Shown here: piece by piece, positions 7,879 through 21,336 of the stretch | How the letters are laid out: every line of letters starts with the position of its first letter | How positions within the stretch are numbered: the first letter of the stretch is position 1 | Virus record (IMG/VR): IMGVR_UViG_3300021952_000044 | Span: 1-21,336 of that record | From: a virus | Length of the DNA: 21,336 nt | Reading direction: 5' to 3' (one strand) | Program-made: the position numbers and the translations under genes | Notes under the pieces: generated by a model | The model's database searches: none | The model's input: the letters and a program-made list of their open reading frames with translations, nothing else | Told to the model about the DNA's origin: nothing

Positions 7879-8497
7879 AACGTGTTCAATTGACACTTGC
7901 ACCAGTCGCGCTGCCGCTCGCGGCTACTGTACTGCGCATTATCAATCACAACGCAAAAAAGGGCTGCTAGTCAACCGCGAAAAGCCAATTTGTACAGTCG
8001 CCTACTGTGGCCACCCGAATTATGCGCGCGGATTCTGTGCAAACTGCTACCAGTCATATCTGAAAGGCCGAAATCGGCCAGATAAGACCAGTTGCATGGT
8101 TGAACATTGTCCAGGCTTCGTATACCGTGAAAATCATTGTATGCGGCACTACAAAGTGCTATACCCGGCATCGGAAATCAACAAAAGCGACTGCGTAACC
8201 AAAAACTGTACAGAACCCCGTTACCACAAATCAGCAATGTGCAAGAAACATTTCCAAGCACAACAAGCCCTGTTTGCTCGCAAGCGACAGGAGAAAAGGG
8301 AAAAAATGCAAGCAAAACGCCTAGCAGCACAACTAGCAGAAGACGCTAAGCCACGTTGCGTTGAAGACGAATGCAATAAGGCCGCCTGGTCGATGGATCG
8401 CTGCCAGTTGCATTACAACGCATGGAAAACTGCCGCCACTCAGGCAGAAGACTTCTGGTCATTCGTTAAAACCGAGCTGAATTTGGAAAACGCCTAA
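7868..8497 (+). CDS. Protein with five tandem CX4CX9-10CX2[HC] zinc-type motifs
   Basis: This 209-residue protein holds five copies of one motif. The ligand sets are C6/C11/C21/H24, C42/C47/C57/C60, C76/C81/C91/H94, C109/C114/C125/H128 and C164/C169/C179/H182. Each ends in an aromatic residue (Y or F) and most carry a G- or R-rich turn before the third cysteine. The second copy has C in place of the final H. A charged helix (about 137-162, many K, R, E and Q) separates copies four and five. The motif count and spacing strongly imply structural zinc sites; nucleic-acid or protein binding is the natural guess, but no function is known to me. The start overlaps the previous gene by 11 bases with AAAAGG upstream. 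Confidence 0.8.
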   Translation: MSSKTCSIDTCTSRAAARGYCTAHYQSQRKKGLLVNREKPICTVAYCGHPNYARGFCANCYQSYLKGRNRPDKTSCMVEHCPGFVYRENHCMRHYKVLYPASEINKSDCVTKNCTEPRYHKSAMCKKHFQAQQALFARKRQEKREKMQAKRLAAQLAEDAKPRCVEDECNKAAWSMDRCQLHYNAWKTAATQAEDFWSFVKTELNLENA

Positions 8498-8931
8498 TGA
8501 AAATAACCGTTTGGACTTTACCTAACTGCGTGCAATGCCAGCAGACAAAGAAGCAGTTCGATTCAATGGGCATTCGTTATGAAGAAAAAGCGTTAGATTC
8601 TGACCCGTTCAAGGCCGACTATTTCCGGGCTAGGGGTTTGCTTACCGCGCCTATCGTTGAAACCGATGTCAAGCTTTGGGCGGGTTTCCGTTTGGATAAG
8701 ATTCGCAGCCTTGCCGCGCACCTAAAATCTTTGGGCGAGGTGGATAAGGTCGAACCGTATATTGTTATGGAAGCGCCGGGCAAAGAAGCGCGTGAGTTGT
8801 ATCGCAAGGAAGGCGAACAACGCGAGCGCCAACGCATCATCAAGTTGCTAGAAGAAGCAGAATGTCAGGGCGAAGACGACTGGTGCGGAACTATCGGACA
8901 GGCCATTGCTCTTATCAAAGAAGAAAAGTAA
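8497..8931 (+). CDS. NrdH-like glutaredoxin fused to a recurrent C-terminal module
   Basis: In this 144-residue protein, residues 1-76 are an NrdH-type redoxin: ITVWTLPNCVQCQQTKKQF with the C11-V-Q-C14 active site, the cis-proline region TAPIV (about 50) and WAGFRLDKIRSL. NrdH passes electrons to class Ib ribonucleotide reductase, so it may support nucleotide supply, although no reductase gene is in the window. Residues 108-144 are a separate module (ERQRIIKLLEE ... IALIKEEK). The same module ends the next two proteins, which are otherwise unrelated. The gene starts in a TAATG overlap with the zinc-repeat gene. Confidence 0.8.
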   Translation: MKITVWTLPNCVQCQQTKKQFDSMGIRYEEKALDSDPFKADYFRARGLLTAPIVETDVKLWAGFRLDKIRSLAAHLKSLGEVDKVEPYIVMEAPGKEARELYRKEGEQRERQRIIKLLEEAECQGEDDWCGTIGQAIALIKEEK

Positions 8932-11783: not shown

Positions 11784-12233
11784 ATGGGAAATCCTTCGAA
11801 ACCAGCCGAGTTGAAATTGATGCAGGGCAATCCGGGTAAGCGTGCTATGCGTTTGAATGATGCTATTGCCCCGCTTGATTATGGGTATGTTGAACCTATT
11901 CGCCCGCTTGGTGTTGTGGGTAAACAGTTTTGGGATTCGGTGTTTGGTGCTGGCGAGTTGTGGATAAGTATTAAGACTGATACGCAGTTGGTTCAGTTGG
12001 CTTGTGAGTTGTTGGATCGGCGCGAGGTGTTGCGTGAAGCTTGGGCGGCTAATCCTGTGGATAGGCCTACGAATATGAGTTTGTTGGAAACTGAGAAGCA
12101 GATTGTTGCGGCATTTTCTTTGATGGGTTTCAGTCCGTCTGACCGTACGCGTTTGGGTTTGGTTTCGGCTAAGACTAAATCGAAGCTTGAAGAACTGCTT
12201 GCTAAGAAGGCTGAGAAGGCTAATGCACAGTAG
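11784..12233 (+). CDS. terS: Terminase small subunit, P27 family
   Basis: This 149-residue protein begins MGNPSKPAELKLMQGNPGKRA, the classic opening of P27-type small terminase subunits. It ends with the family's SPSDRTRLGLVSAKTKSKLEELLAKK, a helical C-terminus that contacts the large subunit. In packaging the small subunit binds the phage DNA start site and regulates the motor. The start is fixed by the family N-terminus despite unusual ribosome-site spacing. It overlaps TerL by 11 bases and follows an HNH gene, the usual HNH-TerS-TerL-portal order. Confidence 0.88.
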   Translation: MGNPSKPAELKLMQGNPGKRAMRLNDAIAPLDYGYVEPIRPLGVVGKQFWDSVFGAGELWISIKTDTQLVQLACELLDRREVLREAWAANPVDRPTNMSLLETEKQIVAAFSLMGFSPSDRTRLGLVSAKTKSKLEELLAKKAEKANAQ

Positions 12234-13749
12234 TTGGCCGCCGCGTTGGCTTACGCCTGTTGCGCCGGATGCTTTGGCTCGTGGCGATGGTGAGTTTGCT
12301 GCCGAGTTTGCAGAAGCTTTTGGTTCTATTGGTAAGGATGGTATTGCCGGGCGTGCTGGTCAGGCATTGGAGTTGCGACCTTGGCAGCATGAGTTGTTGA
12401 AGCATCTTTACGCGCGTGATGAGCAGGGCGGGCTTATGGCTCAGACGGCTTTGATTGGGATGCCGCGTAAGAATGGCAAGTCGGCTTTGTCGTCTGCTGC
12501 TATTGGCCTTTATAGTTTGATTGCCGAGGGCATTGGCGGTGGCGAAGTGATTGCTGTTGCTGCGGAAAAGGAACAGGCTCGCATTGTCTTTGGCGAGGCT
12601 AAGCGCATGGTTGAGAATAGCGAACTGTCTTCGATGGTTACGTTGTATAAGGATTCGATTTATGTTCCCGCTACGTCTAGTGTCTTTCGTGTTGTTTCGG
12701 CCGAGGCTTATTCTAAAGAAGGTTTGAACCCTAGCCGCGTCATTATGGATGAGTTACACGCGCATAAGAACCGTGAACTGTTCGACGTATTTTCTTTGGC
12801 TATGGGTAACCGTGGCAAGATTGGCCAGTTGGTTGCGATTACAACTGCCGGGGTTAAGTCTGATATGACGGGGCAAGACTCTATTTGTTACAGTCTTTAC
12901 CAATACGGCCAAAAGGTTGCCCGCGGTGAAATCATTGACCCGGCATTTTTCATGGCTTGGTGGGAAGCAAACCCGGATGCGGATCACCGTTCGCGCGATG
13001 CATGGATTGAAGCGAATCCTGGCTTCGACGATATCGTTTCTGAAGCCGACTTTGTTTCGTCTATTCGCCGCACCCCTGAAGCCGAGTTTCGCACGAAGCG
13101 TTTAAACCAATGGGTAAGTTCACAGATTAGTTGGTTGCCGAATGGCACTTGGGAAACTCATGCAGAACCCCGCGAGTTGACAGACGACGACGAGATTATG
13201 CTCGGCTTCGACGGCTCATTCTCAGGCGATGCGACTGCAATCGTTGGTTGCACCATTCCCAAAGATGACGAGAAACCGTATGTGTTTATGGTCAAGGCGT
13301 GGGAAAAAAACGACCAGTTCCACGATGACACTTGGAGAGTGCCTATTCAAGAAGTCGAACAGACCATCATTGATTTCTGCGCAACGCATAAGGTTCGCGA
13401 AGTTGCCTGTGACCCGTACCGTTGGCAACGCAGCATGGAAGCCCTAGCCGATGTTGGTATTCCTATTGTCGAATATCCGTCTACTAGCGCTAAGCGAATG
13501 GTTACTTCGTGCGCAAAGTTCTTCGACTATGTGACCGATGGCCGGATGCATCATGACGGTAACCCGATGCTCACCCGCCACTTGTCTAACGCTGTCACCA
13601 AGTCGGATGCGCTTGGCGTTCGCATCGTAAAAGAAAATCGTGCAAGTAGTCGCCGCATCGACTGTGCCGTTGCAGCCATCCTTGCCTTAGACCGTGCAAC
13701 TAGCGGTAGACTAGAAACGCAGGTTGTACCTGAGTTCTTTTCTTTTTAG
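12223..13749 (+). CDS. terL: Terminase large subunit (packaging ATPase-nuclease)
   Basis: This protein is 508 residues from the ATG at 12223, which has GAGAAGG five bases upstream; the frame is open further 5' but only inside terS. The ATPase half has Walker A GMPRKNGKS (79-87), Walker B VIMDE (173-177) and the ITTAG coupling motif (about 206). The nuclease half begins near 325, with D330 in GFDGS and D336. A late RRIDCAVAA supplies the last acidic ligand of the RNase H-like site. It pumps DNA into the prohead and cuts it. Base composition shifts within the gene from G+T-rich to balanced. Confidence 0.93.
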   Translation: MHSSWPPRWLTPVAPDALARGDGEFAAEFAEAFGSIGKDGIAGRAGQALELRPWQHELLKHLYARDEQGGLMAQTALIGMPRKNGKSALSSAAIGLYSLIAEGIGGGEVIAVAAEKEQARIVFGEAKRMVENSELSSMVTLYKDSIYVPATSSVFRVVSAEAYSKEGLNPSRVIMDELHAHKNRELFDVFSLAMGNRGKIGQLVAITTAGVKSDMTGQDSICYSLYQYGQKVARGEIIDPAFFMAWWEANPDADHRSRDAWIEANPGFDDIVSEADFVSSIRRTPEAEFRTKRLNQWVSSQISWLPNGTWETHAEPRELTDDDEIMLGFDGSFSGDATAIVGCTIPKDDEKPYVFMVKAWEKNDQFHDDTWRVPIQEVEQTIIDFCATHKVREVACDPYRWQRSMEALADVGIPIVEYPSTSAKRMVTSCAKFFDYVTDGRMHHDGNPMLTRHLSNAVTKSDALGVRIVKENRASSRRIDCAVAAILALDRATSGRLETQVVPEFFSF

Positions 13750-13755
13750 GTAGGT

Positions 13756-13893
13756 ATGTTGAAAGCTACGATTCTACAAGCCGCCGGGGTTGCGGTTGTG
13801 GCGCTCGGTGTTGGCCTTTGGTTTATCCCCGCTGGCGTTATTGTCGCTGGCGTGGGCTTGGTTTTGTTTGGTCTAGCTTTGGAGCGTAAGTGA
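13756..13893 (+). CDS. Mini membrane protein between terminase and portal
   Basis: This 45-residue ORF has AGGTAGG directly before its ATG. It consists almost entirely of two hydrophobic helices (about 5-22 and 24-42, PAG turn between) and ends with ERK. Its stop overlaps the portal start (TGATG). Small hydrophobic ORFs at this position occur in other actinophages. Function unknown. Confidence 0.55.
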   Translation: MLKATILQAAGVAVVALGVGLWFIPAGVIVAGVGLVLFGLALERK

Positions 13894-15257
13894 TGCTTGG
13901 TCGTCTTGGTAACTCTTTTGAAGGCGCTGAAGAACGCGCGATTTCATTTCAGTCTATTTGGGGTGCTGGCGATTCTCTCGCTTGGCAATCTGACTCAGGC
14001 GCGAACGTAACCCCGAATTCTTCTTTCGGCATTACCGCCTTTTATGCAGCCGTAAACCTTATCTCGGGAACTATCTCAACGCTGCCATGCGATACGTTTG
14101 TGCGCAAGAATGGTACGCGCGAATACTACCGCCCGAAACCAGCCTGGGTACAGAAGCCAGATATCGACCTCGTATCAGGTCAAGCGTTCTGGCAGCAGAC
14201 CCTTATTAGCCTTCTCGTTTGGGGCAACTCATACACTCGCATTTTCCGCGACCCTGAAACCCTAGAGATTGTCAACCTTGTCGCCCTCGATCCAACGCTT
14301 GTGAACGTTACTCGTTCTACCGCAACTGGCCGCAAGGTATTCCACTACCAGGGCGAAGAAAACAAAAGCCTAACCGCTAACGAAGTTCTTCACATCACCG
14401 ATGTACTTCTACCAGGTGCGCTAACTGGCAAGGGTCGCGTTGAAGCGCTAAAAGAATCTTTTGGTTTGTCTATCGCTTTGCAAGCGTTTGCTGCTCGCTT
14501 CTTTGGTGGCGGCATTCAGACCTCGGGTGTTATTGAATATCCGGGAACTCTTGCTAAGGAACAAGCTCGCGCATTGGTTGAAGGTTTCGACTCACGTCAC
14601 ACCGGATACCGCAAGGCTCACCGCACCGGAATTCTCACGGGTGGCGCTAAGTACACTAAGACTGGTTCAACGCCAGACGAGGCACAGATGGTGCAGAGTC
14701 GCGAGTTCGCGGTTCTAGAGGTTGCTCGTGCTTTCCAAATCCCGCCAGTTCTCTTGGGCGTTCCAGGCACTTCATCTTATTCGTCGGCTGAACAGCAGTC
14801 GCAGGATTTTGTTACGCACTCGCTTCGCCCGTTTGTGGAGAAACTAGAACAGGGTTTCTCTAGCCTTCTACCACAAGGCGTATTCATTAAGTGGAATCTC
14901 GATGGTTTGGTTGAAGCTGATTTCGCAACCCGTATGCAGGGTTACTCAGTAGGCGTGCAGGGCGGCTGGCTGTCCATCAATGACATTCACCGTCTAGAAG
15001 ATTTGCCACCTGTTGACGGTGGCGACACTTACCGTGTACCGCTAGCAAACGTGAACTTGAATGCTGCCGAATTGTCTTCGACTGAAATCAAGGTGAAGAT
15101 GGCTAACGATATGATTCTTGCTGGTTTCGATCCGGTAGAAACTTTGAAGGCTTTCGACTTGCCTGTTATCCCGCACTCAGGCGTTCCATCGGCTAAGTTG
15201 CAGCAGGTTCAGAACATCGACCCTAACGCGCCAGATACCGTTTATAAGGGCAACTAA
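13893..15257 (+). CDS. HK97-family portal protein
   Basis: The protein is 454 residues; I choose the ATG at 13893 over the GTG one codon earlier because GGAG lies eight bases before it and the TGATG junction is typical here. Recognisable segments are ITAFYAAVNLISGTISTLP (about 48-66), LVWGNSYTRIFRD, the VLHITD region, the ARFFGGG helix, and EVARAFQIPPVLLGVPGTSSYSSAEQQSQDFV, the portal signature near residue 285. Twelve copies form the vertex through which TerL loads DNA and to which the tail attaches. Confidence 0.92.
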   Translation: MLGRLGNSFEGAEERAISFQSIWGAGDSLAWQSDSGANVTPNSSFGITAFYAAVNLISGTISTLPCDTFVRKNGTREYYRPKPAWVQKPDIDLVSGQAFWQQTLISLLVWGNSYTRIFRDPETLEIVNLVALDPTLVNVTRSTATGRKVFHYQGEENKSLTANEVLHITDVLLPGALTGKGRVEALKESFGLSIALQAFAARFFGGGIQTSGVIEYPGTLAKEQARALVEGFDSRHTGYRKAHRTGILTGGAKYTKTGSTPDEAQMVQSREFAVLEVARAFQIPPVLLGVPGTSSYSSAEQQSQDFVTHSLRPFVEKLEQGFSSLLPQGVFIKWNLDGLVEADFATRMQGYSVGVQGGWLSINDIHRLEDLPPVDGGDTYRVPLANVNLNAAELSSTEIKVKMANDMILAGFDPVETLKAFDLPVIPHSGVPSAKLQQVQNIDPNAPDTVYKGN

Positions 15258-15523
15258 TGAGCGCTATCTCTAACGGTACTTTGTTTGTTGGTACTAGCCC
15301 TGTACAAATCGATGGCAATTCTAACGGCTGGTCGCATATCCACATTCGCAATAATGACACGACTAAAACTTTGTACATCGGTAATAGCGCTTTGACTACT
15401 GCTAACGGTTTGGCATTGGATAAGTTGGCAACTATCGATTTCGATATCCCGCCTGGCATTTCTTTCAACATGGTTACCGATGCTGGCACTTGTTCTGTTT
15501 CATGGCTAAGGATTGACCACTAA
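15257..15523 (+). CDS. Small beta-rich structural-like protein
   Basis: This 88-residue protein is almost wholly beta-strand by pattern (GTLFVGTSPVQIDG, SHIHIRNNDTTKTLYIGN, IDFDIPPGISFNMVTD, CSVSWLRI) with no helix or membrane segment. It sits between portal and protease, coupled by TAATG on both sides. Small beta proteins at this place in HK97-type head operons can be decoration, stopper or head fibre proteins. No specific family is recognised, so I call it only a likely virion protein. Confidence 0.55.
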   Translation: MSAISNGTLFVGTSPVQIDGNSNGWSHIHIRNNDTTKTLYIGNSALTTANGLALDKLATIDFDIPPGISFNMVTDAGTCSVSWLRIDH

Positions 15524-17535
15524 TGCCTTACTACATTTCAGATAAGCAAGCGGATTGCAAAGGCTGGGCTGTTATCAAGCTCGAAGATAACAAGCCTGTA
15601 ACTGTTGCGTGTCACGAAACTAAGCAAGATGCAACAGACCAAATGATTGCTGTTTCTATGGCTGAAGGTCTACGCCCGATGGGGCAATTCTTTGCAGGTA
15701 CTTCTGGCGAAGGTCGCGACGGTGGCGACGGTAACAACCAGGTACTTATTTGCGATATCGACGATACCCTGATTCACAACGGTATGTTAATTGCCGATAC
15801 CGCCGATTTTGTTGCGCAACAAAACGTTGGCATCATGCTAGTTACCGGCCGCTTAGAAGCAGACCGTGCGCAGACTGTCGCGCAATTGGCTAAACTAGGA
15901 ATGGATTACGATCATCTTTACATGAACAACCTCGGTAGTTCTGCAAAGTCGATTGAATTCAAAAAGAATACTGCACAAGAACTACTCAAGAATTACGATG
16001 TGACTCTTGCGATTGATAACGATGGCGGTGCGCGCGCGGCTTATGCGTCGCTGGGCATTCCCGTCATTGACCCGACCCGACTACCTGTAAAGCGTGAAAT
16101 GAATCCAGCAGACCAGTATCCAGCCGTAGACGACAGCACTACCCTTAATGGCGTGGCGGTCTTGCCATGCACCAAAGAAGACTTAGCACTACGCCTAAAG
16201 GACTTGCTCGGCGATACCGTTAATTTCAAGTTCCTTGCTCACGGCTTCCATTGGAACGTACGCGGTGTTAACTTCGCGCAGTACCACGAATTTTTTGGTG
16301 AAATTTACACCGATGCAAATGATGCTATTGACCCGATTGCGGAGAACATTCGCAAACTCAATTTCGATGCCCCTATCAAGCTGAGCGATTACCTAGAGTC
16401 TGTCGATGAAATCGAACCTACCGATTCAAGCGATCCGCTAGAGATGTGCCGTTCTTTGTACATGGCTAACGAGGATGTTTTGGAATCTGTCGTTCACGCT
16501 TTGCAGATTGCCAACGAACTTGATGAGCAGGGTATTGTTAATTTCCTAGCCGAGCGCCAGGATGCTCACGCTAAAAACCAATGGCAACTGCGCGCTATCG
16601 TCGGCGATTCTTTTGCCAAGAACTACCAGGTCGATGTTCACGCTGTGGCAGAAGGTCAGACTGGCGAAGGCAATGAAAAGCCAGCCGAGATTGATACCAC
16701 CCCGGCTAACGCCACCCCTAACGTAAACGTAAACGCCGATGGTACGCCTATGGTGCAGATGAACTCAACCGCTACCAAGTGGGCTAAGGCGGCCGAGATG
16801 ATTGTTCGCAAGCTCGAGCCTGTTCAAGAAGTGCCATTGTCTGAAGAACGCGGTTCAAAAATTGAAACCCGCGTGAACCATGTCGACGTAGAACTACGCG
16901 CGACTAGTGCAGACGGTATGACTTTCGAAGGTTATGCCAGCGTATTCAACAGCCCTTCAGAACCTATCGGTGGCAAGTTCACCGAGTATGTTGCACCGGG
17001 CGCTTTCAAGCGTTCACTTGCCGCGCGTAACGATGTAAAACTTTTGTGGAATCACGACACCGGGCAAGTACTTGGTTCTACCCGTGCTGGCACTTTGCAG
17101 TTGGTCGAAGACGCTCACGGTCTAAAGGCGATTGCTACTTTGCCAGATACGCAACTTGGCCGCGATGCTGCAACTCTTATCAAGCGTGGCGATGTCGCTA
17201 ACATGAGTTTTGGTTTTAGCGTTCCGGCAGGTGGCGATGCTTGGTCTAGCGATGGTCAGACTCGCACTCTAAACAGCGTTCGTTTGCACGAAGTGAGCAT
17301 CGTTGCTTTTCCGGCCTACCAGGCAAGCACCGCTAACGTACGCGCAGAAGTTCGTTCACTAGACGCAGACCTTCTAACCGATGGTCTAACCAAGTTGGAG
17401 AACGGCGAAGACCTGACCCCGGCAGAAGCAGAAGCGTTAACTGGCGTAGTTGCTAAACTAACTAAGACGGAAAAAGTCGAACAGTCTTTGGATCTCCTAA
17501 AGGCTAAACTCACCCTTCAAGCAAAGGCTATCTAA
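15523..17535 (+). CDS. Fusion: HAD phosphatase-like / Dps-like ferritin / HK97 prohead protease
   Basis: This is a single 670-residue frame with AAGGA before the ATG. Residues 1-50 are a small cap (GWAVIKL, ACHETKQDATDQ) common in phage head proteins. Residues 72-185 are HAD-like: DID80-D-T82, VTGR (T108) and AIDND (165-167). Residues 215-365 resemble Dps: H243 and H255 in HWNVRGVNFAQYH, then D270-x3-E274. The 12-, 15- and 4-residue spacing matches Dps ferroxidase ligands (H31, H43, D58, E62 in Listeria Dps); the D47 equivalent is G259, with E260 beside it. A linker follows (about 366-450). Residues 455-605 are the HK97 protease: EGYASVFN, LLWNH511, NMS562FGF and LHEVSIVAFPAY. The helical remainder may act as scaffold. 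HK97-type proteases are usually near 200 residues. Confidence 0.85.
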   Translation: MPYYISDKQADCKGWAVIKLEDNKPVTVACHETKQDATDQMIAVSMAEGLRPMGQFFAGTSGEGRDGGDGNNQVLICDIDDTLIHNGMLIADTADFVAQQNVGIMLVTGRLEADRAQTVAQLAKLGMDYDHLYMNNLGSSAKSIEFKKNTAQELLKNYDVTLAIDNDGGARAAYASLGIPVIDPTRLPVKREMNPADQYPAVDDSTTLNGVAVLPCTKEDLALRLKDLLGDTVNFKFLAHGFHWNVRGVNFAQYHEFFGEIYTDANDAIDPIAENIRKLNFDAPIKLSDYLESVDEIEPTDSSDPLEMCRSLYMANEDVLESVVHALQIANELDEQGIVNFLAERQDAHAKNQWQLRAIVGDSFAKNYQVDVHAVAEGQTGEGNEKPAEIDTTPANATPNVNVNADGTPMVQMNSTATKWAKAAEMIVRKLEPVQEVPLSEERGSKIETRVNHVDVELRATSADGMTFEGYASVFNSPSEPIGGKFTEYVAPGAFKRSLAARNDVKLLWNHDTGQVLGSTRAGTLQLVEDAHGLKAIATLPDTQLGRDAATLIKRGDVANMSFGFSVPAGGDAWSSDGQTRTLNSVRLHEVSIVAFPAYQASTANVRAEVRSLDADLLTDGLTKLENGEDLTPAEAEALTGVVAKLTKTEKVEQSLDLLKAKLTLQAKAI

Positions 17536-17877: not shown

Positions 17878-19059
17878 ATGTCTGAATTCCTAAAGGCTCA
17901 GGTTGAACTGCGCCAGAAGGCTTGGCACGAAGCCAAGGCAATGCTGGATGTTGCAGAGTCAGAGAAGCGCGAGCTTACTGGCGAGGAGTCGGCAAAGTTC
18001 GCTGAAATTTCGGCAGACCTAGACAAGCGTGCAGCATTCATTACCGAGGCAACCAAGATGGCTGAGCGCGAAGAACGTGCTGCTGCTGCATCAAACGGTT
18101 TCATCGTTCCAGAGGGTCGCTCAAGCGACGCTGACCAGATTCGTGCAATGGCTCGCGGCGAGGCTCGTTCATTCGAGTTTGGTCACGAAAAGCGTGCAGG
18201 TCTAGTACCGTCAACCACCGGCGCGCCAGTTCCTACCTCGTTCTATGACCAGGTTATTACTGTTGCTAAGTATGTTGGCCCTATGCTGTCAACCTCGACC
18301 ATGCTTCGCACCGCATCAGGTGAGCCGCTTCAGATTCCTTCACAGGCAACTTACTCGGCTGGAACTCAGACCGCAGCAGGTTCTGTACTATCTGAGTCTG
18401 ACCCTACCTTCAACGCGTTCAAGACCCTTCAGTCTTGGAAATACGGCGGTATTATTACTGTTGCACGCGAGCTTCTAGAAGACACCGGTGTCGACCTTCT
18501 TGGTTTCCTATCAGACCAGATTGGTGTTGGCCTTGGTGCTTCAGTTAACGCTGCCCTAACCAACGGTACTGGTACTACTCAGCCAACCGGTATTGCTGTT
18601 GCAGCATCAACCGGCGTAACTGGTGGAACTGGTGTTACCGGTGCATTCACCGCCGACAACCTAATTGACCTCGTTTACTCTCTTGACACTCTTGCACGTC
18701 GTCGCCCTGGCGCTGGCTTCATGATGAACAAGACTGCTATCTCAGCAGTTCGTAAGCTCAAGGACAACTACGGCCGCTACATCTTCGAGCCAGCCCTATC
18801 GGCTGACAAGACTGACCTATTGCTTGGTTACTCAATCGCTGAGAACCCTGATCTAGCTTCTGCTGGAACTGGCGTTACCTCGGTTCTATTCGGTGACCTT
18901 GCATCGTACTACGTTCGCGAAGTAGGCGGCATCCGTCTAGACCGCAGCGACGACTACGCTTTCGCAAACGACCAGGTGACTTTCCGTTACACCTGGCGTG
19001 GCGACGGCAACCTAATCCAGCCAAGCCACATCAAGGGCTTCAAGGGCGGCGCAAGCTAA
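17878..19059 (+). CDS. HK97-fold major capsid protein
   Basis: In this 393-residue protein, residues 1-70 are a charged coiled coil (QVELRQKAWHEAKAM, ADLDKRAAF), the delta/scaffold domain expected to be removed by the prohead protease. The mature part probably begins somewhere after about residue 100 (EKR-AGLVPS), which is inference. Family landmarks are GAPVPTSFYDQVI, the P-domain segment SESDPTFNAFKTL, ARELLEDT, MNKTAISAVRKLKD, LLGYSI, and the final VTFRYTWRGDG. Codon choice is regular, consistent with high expression. The gene stands alone between two strong terminators. Confidence 0.94.
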   Translation: MSEFLKAQVELRQKAWHEAKAMLDVAESEKRELTGEESAKFAEISADLDKRAAFITEATKMAEREERAAAASNGFIVPEGRSSDADQIRAMARGEARSFEFGHEKRAGLVPSTTGAPVPTSFYDQVITVAKYVGPMLSTSTMLRTASGEPLQIPSQATYSAGTQTAAGSVLSESDPTFNAFKTLQSWKYGGIITVARELLEDTGVDLLGFLSDQIGVGLGASVNAALTNGTGTTQPTGIAVAASTGVTGGTGVTGAFTADNLIDLVYSLDTLARRRPGAGFMMNKTAISAVRKLKDNYGRYIFEPALSADKTDLLLGYSIAENPDLASAGTGVTSVLFGDLASYYVREVGGIRLDRSDDYAFANDQVTFRYTWRGDGNLIQPSHIKGFKGGAS

Positions 19060-19177: not shown

Positions 19178-20347
19178 ATGGCAAAAGGTACAATCTCTTG
19201 GTTTTCTAATTCTCCAGAAGCAACTACTGGTTATGGTCAACAGACTAACCAGGTTGTGAAGCGTTTGAAGCGTGACGGGTACGATGTTGCAATCCTTAGC
19301 AACTATGGTCGCGAGGGTTCTATCGGCGATTGGGATTCTGGCGAAGGTTTGGTTCGTGAGTATCCTAAGGGTGCGCAAGCCTATTCGCAGGATGTGACCC
19401 CGTTGAATCATGCGCATTGGTCTGCGGAACATCCAGGCCAGCCAAATGTTTTGATTACTCTTTACGATGCTTGGATTCTCGAGGGTCGCAAGTATGACGA
19501 AATGAATATTGCGTCTTGGATTCCTGTGGATCATTATCCTTGCCCGCCTAAGGTTTTGGCGTGGGCTGCTAAGGATTCTGTGACCCCTATTGCTATGAGC
19601 CGGTTTGGGCAGAAGGCTATGCAGGATGCGGGCGTTGAAGCCGAGTATGTGCCGCACGCTATCGAACCTGTGTTCACGCCTACGCCTATGATTAATGGCA
19701 TGACTGGCCGTGAGTATCTTGGCCTTGCCGAAGATGATTTCATCGTTGGCATTTTTGCCGCCAACAAGGCTAATGGTTTGGTTCACCGTAAGGCGTTGGC
19801 CGAGAACATTTTGGCGTTTGGTATTTTCGCTAAGGATAAGCCGAATGCAAAACTGTATTTGCATATGGATATGTTTGGCGTGTTTGGTGGATGGAATATT
19901 CCTGATTTGCTTGAAGCTTGCGGGCTAACTCACGACCAGGTTGTTCTTGTAGACCAGGTTGCATACCGTTACGGTTTGGGGCAAGATGTGCTTGCTGGCT
20001 TGTACACGGCTTGTGATGTTTATCTAGGTACTTCGCTTGGTGAAGGTTTTGGCATTCACACTATCGAGGCGCAAGCTTGTGGCACGCCTGTTATTGTTTC
20101 TAACTTTGCTGCGTCAAAGGAACTTGTTGGCGATGGCTGGCTTGTTGATGGGCAGCCGTTGTGGGATCATCACCAAAAGTCTTGGTTCAATGTGCCATCT
20201 ATTCCAGGTATTGTTGATGCTTTGCAGAATGCCTTTGCGCGCCCGCGTGAGCGTTCTCAGAAGGCGTTGGACTTCGCTGCCGAGTACGGCGCGGATGTTG
20301 TCTATGAAACCTACTGGAAGCCGCTGCTAGCAAAGTTGCTTAAGTGA
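19178..20347 (+). CDS. GT4-type (GT-B fold) glycosyltransferase
   Basis: In this 389-residue protein, the N-terminal domain begins ISWFSNSPEATTGYGQQT, typical of acceptor-binding Rossmann domains with the glycine-rich first loop. The C-terminal donor domain has VGIFAANKANGLVHRK (about 189-205). It also has the GT4 signature GEGFGIHTIEAQACGTPVI at 288-306, with E289 and E297 in the E-x7-E position. It would transfer a sugar from a nucleotide donor to protein, DNA base or glycan. It is the first of three sugar/polyol genes downstream of the capsid; AAAGGG precedes the ATG. The target is unknown. Confidence 0.85.
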   Translation: MAKGTISWFSNSPEATTGYGQQTNQVVKRLKRDGYDVAILSNYGREGSIGDWDSGEGLVREYPKGAQAYSQDVTPLNHAHWSAEHPGQPNVLITLYDAWILEGRKYDEMNIASWIPVDHYPCPPKVLAWAAKDSVTPIAMSRFGQKAMQDAGVEAEYVPHAIEPVFTPTPMINGMTGREYLGLAEDDFIVGIFAANKANGLVHRKALAENILAFGIFAKDKPNAKLYLHMDMFGVFGGWNIPDLLEACGLTHDQVVLVDQVAYRYGLGQDVLAGLYTACDVYLGTSLGEGFGIHTIEAQACGTPVIVSNFAASKELVGDGWLVDGQPLWDHHQKSWFNVPSIPGIVDALQNAFARPRERSQKALDFAAEYGADVVYETYWKPLLAKLLK

Positions 20348-20991
20348 TTCCTGTTGTTGGTTTCGCTACGCTGAAACGGTTTGACCTTGCAGACCGTTTA
20401 CTTGCTTCGATTGATTACCCGGTTGAGAATCTGGTTATTGTTGACAACTCGGGGCTTGGGGATTGGAATCCTGAGAAGCCTGTTTGGGTTGTCAATATGT
20501 GGATTATCCGTGTACCGTTTGGGCTGGGTTTAACAGGCGCTTGGAATCTCATTGTCAAGTCAACACCCTATGCCCCGTATTGGGTTCTTATTAATGACGA
20601 TGCTTGGTTTGCTCCTGGGTCGCTCAAGCTCATTGAAGAAAACGTTGATACCGAGGCTTTGAACTTTGCGTTGATAGAACCTAAATGGTCTGCCCCTATT
20701 TTCGGCGAAGGCATGGTTCGTGAAGTTGGTCTTTATGATGAGCGCTTTTATCCGTTGTATTACGACGATAACGATCTTGAACGTCGCGTGAATTATCACG
20801 GCGTAAGAACGCATTACATTCCCGCGGTGATTCATCACGAAAACAGTTCGACACTTGCCAGCGGTTTCAATAAGGTAAATGAAAAATCTTTCGCGGCTAA
20901 TAGTTTTCTTCATTCGAAGAAGGTTGCCGAGGATGATTACACAGAGGGCAATTGGTCGCTAGATATTAGAAGGGCTAACCGATGGGATTGA
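20344..20991 (+). CDS. GT2-like (GT-A fold) glycosyltransferase
   Basis: This 215-residue protein starts at a GTG overlapping the end of the previous gene by 4 bases. It shows the GT-A pattern: N-terminal strand PVVGFATLKR, VIVDNSG (D34-N35) for nucleotide binding, GLTGAWN, and LINDDAWF with N84-D85-D86 as the metal-binding DxD-like motif. YDDNDLERR near residue 140 gives the catalytic ED-like pair. It is short for a GT2 enzyme but complete. It probably works with the GT4 neighbour on one glycan. Acceptor unknown. Confidence 0.75.
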   Translation: MIPVVGFATLKRFDLADRLLASIDYPVENLVIVDNSGLGDWNPEKPVWVVNMWIIRVPFGLGLTGAWNLIVKSTPYAPYWVLINDDAWFAPGSLKLIEENVDTEALNFALIEPKWSAPIFGEGMVREVGLYDERFYPLYYDDNDLERRVNYHGVRTHYIPAVIHHENSSTLASGFNKVNEKSFAANSFLHSKKVAEDDYTEGNWSLDIRRANRWD

Positions 20992-21336
20992 TAGTTTACA
21001 CGGGCGGCTCGTTCGACCTGTTTCATTCAGGCCACGTTGCGTTTCTCAGACGTTGCAAAGAACTAGCCGGGAAACATGGGCGCGTTATCGTGTCATTAAA
21101 CACCGATGAGTTCATCCTTGCCTATAAGGGCAAAGGCTTAGTTATGAACTATGCCGAGCGTGAAGCGGTTCTTGAAGCTTGCCGTTATGTCGATTTTGTT
21201 ATGCCTAACTATGACGGCGCAGATAGTAAAACCGCGATTGAAGCCGCATCTCCTGATTTAGTTGTTATCGGTTCTGATTGGGCTAGGCGTGACTACTATA
21301 AGCAAATGGGGTTTACGCAAGATTGGTTAGATGAAC
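20982..21336 (+). CDS. Glycerol-3-phosphate cytidylyltransferase-like protein, 3' truncated by window
   Basis: The 118 complete codons visible run off the window end. The start overlaps the preceding gene by 10 bases. The cytidylyltransferase signature is clear: YTGGSFDLFHSGHVAFLRR with the H-x-G-H motif, SLNTDEF, a basic YKGKG stretch, NYAEREAVLEACRYVDFVMP and PDLVVIGSDW. It most resembles TagD/GCT enzymes, which make CDP-glycerol from CTP and glycerol 3-phosphate for teichoic acid; related family members use other phosphorylated alcohols. With two glycosyltransferases alongside it suggests assembly of a glycerol- or polyol-containing decoration. A bifunctional heptose- or ribitol-type activity cannot be excluded. 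Confidence 0.85.
   Translation, partial: MGLIVYTGGSFDLFHSGHVAFLRRCKELAGKHGRVIVSLNTDEFILAYKGKGLVMNYAEREAVLEACRYVDFVMPNYDGADSKTAIEAASPDLVVIGSDWARRDYYKQMGFTQDWLDE

Follow-up and report, generated by a model that had tools for sequence, protein, structure and literature searches.

During T4 head assembly the internal proteins and the protease are co-assembled, these proteins are trimmed by gp21 and some of them are injected (PMC9958956). Free Dps genes have been reported in gut phages (PMC8008677) and in Lactobacillus phages (PMC6669764), and freshwater phages often carry genes for defence against reactive oxygen species (ROS), ferritin included (PMC6802176); in each of these reports the genes were interpreted as protecting the host. 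A search of the openly accessible literature found no paper describing the fusion of a Dps/ferritin domain to a prohead protease, and no cultured phage in INPHARED carries such a fusion. Sequences of this kind are already public under the names "prohead protease" or "Dps"; in BFVD the fused relatives appear as "Prohead protease" (A0A6J7WPK9, 763 aa) and "DNA-binding protein Dps". The fusion is real and widespread, and lacks a description in what could be searched.

The sequence analysed in this work (the window) is the whole of IMGVR_UViG_3300021952_000044, a linear IMG/VR contig of 21,336 bases representing a fragment from a metagenome. A single uninterrupted ATG frame at positions 15523-17535 of its plus strand encodes a product of 670 aa, in which the original prediction had read a HAD phosphatase, a Dps-like ferritin and a prohead protease; each of these domains was significant in Pfam or PHROGs. 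The head genes and the parts of the product are the following:

12187..13749, plus strand: terminase large subunit (context)
13890..15257, plus strand: portal protein (context)
15257..15523, plus strand: 88-aa ORF in the portal-protease interval, kept in relatives with and without Dps
15523..17535, plus strand: fusion ORF comprising N-domain, HAD, Dps, linker and prohead protease (frame, Pfam, PHROGs)
15523..15720, plus strand: N-terminal domain, aa 1-66 (YYISD...CHETKQ), common to nearly all relatives
15727..16092, plus strand: HAD phosphatase domain, aa 69-190, predicted to be Pnkp 3'-phosphatase-like (Pfam, PHROGs, structure match)
16162..16641, plus strand: Dps/ferritin domain, about aa 214-373, with the putative ferroxidase ligands H243, H255, D270 and E274 (Pfam, PHROGs, PDB search, model)
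16642..16770, plus strand: low-complexity linker, aa 374-416, faster evolving, a candidate self-cleavage site
16771..16842, plus strand: amphipathic helix KWxxAAxxIxxRLE, aa 417-440, N-terminal of the protease, also in relatives without Dps
16888..17346, plus strand: Peptidase_S78 prohead protease, aa 456-608 (Pfam, alignment, structure match)
17878..19059, plus strand: major capsid protein, with an N-terminal helical (delta-like) region of its own (sequence)

Terminase, portal, 88-aa ORF, fusion, major capsid protein and glycosyltransferases follow one another in the usual head-gene order, and the protease gene sits after that of the portal and before that of the major capsid protein. Directly 3' of the capsid gene (window 19178-21335) lie glycosyltransferase, galactosyltransferase-like and heptose-phosphate adenylyltransferase-like genes; glycosyltransferases occupy the same place after the capsid gene in the Pontimonas phage phiPsal1. 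Another redox function of the same phage is encoded by a glutaredoxin gene (Pfam PF00462) at window 8497-8931. Among cultured phages, phiPsal1 was the closest in its terminase (56%), capsid (42%) and protease, suggesting an aquatic actinobacterial host for the phage of the window; our best guess is aquatic Actinobacteria, e.g. Pontimonas or related Microbacteriaceae.

Among the PHROGs profiles, the 670-aa product matched those of head maturation protease (8.6e-68), Dps-type DNA-binding protein (9.6e-22) and polynucleotide-kinase-type HAD (7e-13), and its Pfam and PHROGs matches to HAD/Acid_phosphat_B, Ferritin and Peptidase_S78 were all above the curated cut-offs where these are given. Peptidase_S78, at aa 456-608 (E=1.2e-48, 165.8 bits against a cut-off of 21), takes up only the last third of the product, as had been claimed for this HK97-type protease. 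Residues H511, S562 and E590 were invariant across 24 aligned relatives, and from knowledge of the HK97 and T4 proteases we take them to be the catalytic triad; the structure nearest to the protease part of the full-length model was T4 gp21. At the other end of the product, the N-domain of one relative weakly matched DUF2188 (E=0.003, under the cut-off).

The Dps assignment of the middle third is supported by several lines of evidence. Pfam Ferritin was found at aa 225-361 (E=7.5e-15, 55.5 bits against a cut-off of 24.5), and the top matches of this third in a PDB sequence search were all Dps proteins (8ff9 at 2.9e-17). The full-length AlphaFold model, built on an alignment with relatives of mixed architecture, was poor (pTM 0.35, with a pLDDT below 50 in the Dps region), the Dps being badly modelled because few alignment rows covered it. 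A second model (AF2) of residues 69-375, based on 66 sequences, gave a HAD fold and the four-helix bundle expected for this region, joined by a weak linker; the bundle reached a pLDDT of 90-98 and contained a short BC helix at model residues 219-222. When the Dps model was compared with the PDB by Foldseek, the top 50 matches were exclusively Dps proteins, the first being P. aeruginosa PA0962, with a probability of 1.0, TM scores mostly of 0.84-0.91 (target length) and 28-31% identity.

The 12-15-4 spacing of H243, H255, D270 and E274 was as originally described, and these residues correspond to H51, H63, D78 and E82 of E. coli Dps, the inter-subunit ferroxidase ligands. Across 123 distinct viral Dps domains, H243 was kept in 122, H255 in 123, D270 in 123 and E274 in 122, the conservation of H243 being partly selected by the search pattern AHGxHWN, outside which the other three residues lie. 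Of these domains, 88 belong to ORFs with a length of 250 aa or more; as the scan patterns were built from head-fused Dps, counts of this kind cannot give the fused share among all phage Dps. The equivalent of E. coli Dps D67 is G259, a position that is not conserved and holds G, Q, E or A across the family. A carboxylate there is a supporting feature of Dps, not an absolute requirement, and with Gly in its place the di-iron site may be partial. Judging from the retained ferroxidase ligands, the Dps domain appears to be catalytically intact.

The net charge of the Dps core was -16 (median -18, range -24 to -11, in the fused relatives), and the flanks of the fused Dps were poor in K and R, with no lysine-rich tail. 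DNA binding through a basic tail is found in some Dps proteins only and is not required for membership of the family. An acidic core with K/R-poor flanks makes it unlikely that the domain coats DNA and speaks for iron/peroxide chemistry; the same features disfavour the earlier idea that the domain binds DNA, and condensation as its main role.

As for the HAD domain, Pfam Acid_phosphat_B/HAD was found at aa 95-164 (E=1.5e-8, 34.9 bits against a cut-off of 27), and the HAD_PNKP profile reached 22.6 bits at best, below its cut-off of 27.6. The residues of HAD motifs I-IV (DxD, T/S, K, acidic), namely D78, D80, T108, K147 and D165, were kept in 94-100% of 48 relatives. In the full-length model this part was nearest to Pnkp1 and the T4 Pnkp 3'-phosphatase (4xrp, 1rrc and 5uj0 were the top HAD matches), and the sequence match to Pnkp1 was weak (E=0.013); the model thus predicts a domain that resembles a PNKP 3'-phosphatase. 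No relative of this domain was found in the INPHARED phage collection at E 1e-5. Ends bearing a 3'-phosphate are typical scars of oxidative breaks. A Pnkp-like 3'-phosphatase fits the repair of such ends, but it could equally well serve RNA repair after injection.

Three loci with 98-100% aa identity to the product (L002, L003 and L004) and many contigs at 62-79% contain the same continuous fusion frame. Since these contigs are independent, the fusion is not an assembly artefact, and a frameshift or chimera as its source was ruled out. Between the window and L002, the synonymous/non-synonymous changes were 17/2 in Dps, 19/2 in S78 and 8/1 in HAD; Dps is under strong purifying selection, equal to that on the protease. 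The linkers diverge much faster than the domains (14-35% for linker 1 vs 61-78% for Dps in diverged relatives). A linker between Dps and protease had originally been placed at about residues 366-450: a low-complexity linker does exist, with narrower bounds of about 374-416, and residues 417-440 belong instead to the amphipathic helix shared with Dps-less relatives. As no cleavage motif is definable from the sequence, self-cleavage at this linker is something that we infer. That the protease takes the domain into the prohead and then frees it by self-cleavage is plausible.

A census of S78 proteins at the loci of the first scans revealed one scheme, in which the N-domain is followed by exchangeable modules and then by the protease. 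These modules were KG (helical, PHROG 2859-like), Tudor-like, HAD, Zn-like and Dps, and the commonest architectures, with near-copies counted, were N-HAD-Dps-S78 (29), N-KG-HAD-Dps-S78 (26) and N-Tudor-KG-S78 (24). HAD was gained or lost between close relatives, being present in L027 and L031 and absent from L043, and L009 and L122 kept Dps without the N-domain and HAD, the fetched locus holding no HAD. Clean presence/absence pairs for HAD among closely related proteases were L043 vs L027 and L053 vs L052. Judging from these sequences, the N-terminal region of the protease is clearly a site of module shuffling. Prohead proteases would thus bear a cargo slot whose modules are swapped between phages, and such a slot could serve to predict other head-packaged enzymes or to load proteins into capsids.

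The linkage of Dps to head genes recurs in other forms. Besides the form of the window, in which Dps is N-terminal to a PHROG-80 S78 protease (a), Dps was found C-terminal to a distant S78 protease at 25 loci (b), in 18 of which a divergently transcribed portal gene bears a HAD domain at its C-terminus; the portal ORF of L186 (minus strand) and 17 similar loci, whose proteases have a C-terminal Dps, contain a HAD/Pnkp-like domain near the portal C-terminus. Dps was also C-terminal to an XkdF-type protease in L123 and L233 (c), with a Zeta/AAA kinase domain after the protease-Dps of L233; a Zeta-toxin/AAA_33 kinase domain adjoins or is fused with the XkdF-type protease-Dps at L123:8552-9601 and L233:3-2030. 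The remaining forms were Dps C-terminal to PHROG 9427 and PHROG 2753 proteases in L216 and L218 (d); a 1766-aa ORF at L211:633-5930, whose polyprotein combines a KG module with portal, protease and Dps domains (e); a free Dps gene directly 3' of a PHROG-776 portal in L149, L151, L152, L160 and L178 (f); and a free Dps gene that overlaps the end of an XkdF-type protease gene in L223 or lies just before the terminase in L089 (g). Dps was fused to the start of the ORF after the portal in L162, and at L149:6199-15840 the portal and free Dps were followed by a 194-aa protein and then by a 2258-aa ORF with NUDIX and exonuclease domains, a giant head-linked protein.

The L123 domain grouped inside the window-type set of the Dps tree despite its other protease family, implying domain transfer. 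Within the PHROG-80 protease clade, a tree test did not reject one common origin for the N-terminal Dps-S78 form (p-AU 0.35), so the fusion count rests on different protease families or domain orders; because forms (a), (b) and (c) differ in one or the other, we claim that Dps was joined to head proteases at least three times independently. These joinings, the interchangeable N-terminal modules and the predicted PNKP-like nature of HAD go beyond the original prediction. Cellular genome contigs gave no match when scanned with the whole protein; scanned with the Dps alignment, they yielded two MAG contigs with Dps-S78, which are phage-derived, as portal and terminase accompany it.

The three domains of this single polypeptide each have an intact active site; its gene occupies a late head-gene position, and the linkage of Dps to head proteins is recurrent. 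We propose, with a probability of about 0.5, that the protein is a head-maturation protease with exchangeable N-terminal cargo, here a PNKP-type HAD and a Dps, co-assembled in the prohead for defence against iron and peroxide. From packaging and cleavage to cage formation, activity and benefit, the steps that we infer are these. The precursor would co-assemble inside the prohead, as happens with protease and internal proteins in T4 and HK97. Once activated, the protease would cleave both its own linker and the delta region of the capsid, so that Dps (and HAD) would remain in the head. Dps, alone or as a cage, could then oxidise Fe(II) and consume peroxide, with less Fenton damage to a packaged genome whose DNA stays uncoated, and, either within the head or following ejection, the HAD phosphatase may remove 3'-phosphate ends. 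At about 9 nm, a full Dps 12-mer would not fit through the pores or the tail and should be retained in the head; HAD could be ejected. More tentatively, we extend this proposal to many uncultured aquatic phages, in which the protease would be the covalent carrier that brings a 3'-phosphatase and a working Dps ferroxidase to the genome, and in which repeated acquisition would have equipped the virion with its own defence against oxidative DNA damage.

Dps could instead act in the infected cell before packaging, as a stress protein against ROS in the cytoplasm, the fusion merely tying its expression to the late genes. The ROS-defence genes of freshwater phages (PMC6802176) and the free Dps of gut phages (PMC8008677) were read in this way, and the window encodes glutaredoxin too. 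Furthermore, free phage Dps genes lie near non-head genes in L090, L093, S-SRM01 and pSal-SNUABM-01, and therefore Dps is not always a head protein in phages. However, repeated joining to proteases and adjacency to portals in unrelated lineages would be unexpected for a cytoplasmic enzyme, and the usual late expression of head genes leaves little time in which the host could still be protected. We therefore regard a role confined to the host cell as rather unlikely. The usual view of phage Dps and other ROS genes is that they help the infected cell; the repeated fusion to head proteases suggests that in many aquatic phages the target of protection is the virion genome.

Dps self-assembles, and protease and scaffold must co-assemble; with the module sitting on the protease, a 12-mer might cluster protease subunits as a prohead nucleus or size ruler, its iron chemistry being incidental. 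Nevertheless, the invariant ferroxidase ligands would be needless in a mere scaffold, a delta-like region is already present in the capsid protein, and many close relatives without the Dps module keep protease, capsid and portal. The original suggestion that the domain templates assembly is weakened by these last two findings, and we consider it improbable. Likewise, Dps cages store iron and the ligands are invariant, as would suit the delivery of iron to the next host by the head, in analogy to the proposed iron-in-tails (Ferrojan) idea; yet an intact cage cannot pass the tail and that idea concerns tail proteins, making iron delivery very doubtful. That Dps is an inert passenger left by shuffling, at what is clearly a shuffling site, is hardly credible in view of its invariant active site, low dN/dS and repeated acquisition, and purifying selection already contradicts it.

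Taken as a head-borne defence, the fusion can be compared with several known systems. With the Dps family (P. aeruginosa PA0962, 8ff9; V. cholerae Dps, 3iq1) it has in common the four-helix bundle, the BC helix and the H-H-D-E ligands, but here Dps is embedded in a phage head protease of 670 aa instead of standing free, the D67 position is not conserved and there is no lysine-rich DNA-binding tail. The H-S-E set and the portal-capsid gene position are those of the Peptidase_S78/PHROG 80 prohead proteases (HK97, T4 gp21-like fold), whereas here the protease is only the last third, preceded by an N-terminal tray of modules (N, KG, Tudor, HAD, Zn, Dps). The closest cultured relative, the prohead protease of phiPsal1 (AUV61415), has the same N-domain and gene order, with Zn-like and KG modules where the window has HAD and Dps. 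T4 Pnkp 3'-phosphatase and bacterial Pnkp1 provide the HAD fold, the catalytic motifs and the best structural matches, but the window protein has no kinase domain, is fused to a head protein and scores below the HAD_PNKP cut-off.

The T4 internal head proteins (IPI-III, Alt) would follow a common logic of co-assembly in the prohead, processing by the head protease and retention or injection; they are the products of separate genes, some with a targeting sequence, whereas the proposed cargo described here is covalently part of the protease. The free Dps proteins of gut, Lactobacillus and cyanobacterial phages are also phage-encoded, but they are single genes, lying away from the head cluster in the cases examined, and have been interpreted as protecting the host from stress. 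Finally, encapsulins with ferritin-like cargo (IMEF, EncB/C) share the arrangement proposed here, a ferritin-like ferroxidase inside an HK97-fold shell, although they are bacterial compartments whose cargo is joined by a targeting peptide, not phage heads with a protease and a packaged genome. We know of no earlier covalently loaded ferroxidase cargo in a phage head; if our proposal is correct, this would be the first, and a natural parallel, in a related shell fold, of the ferritin-loaded encapsulins.
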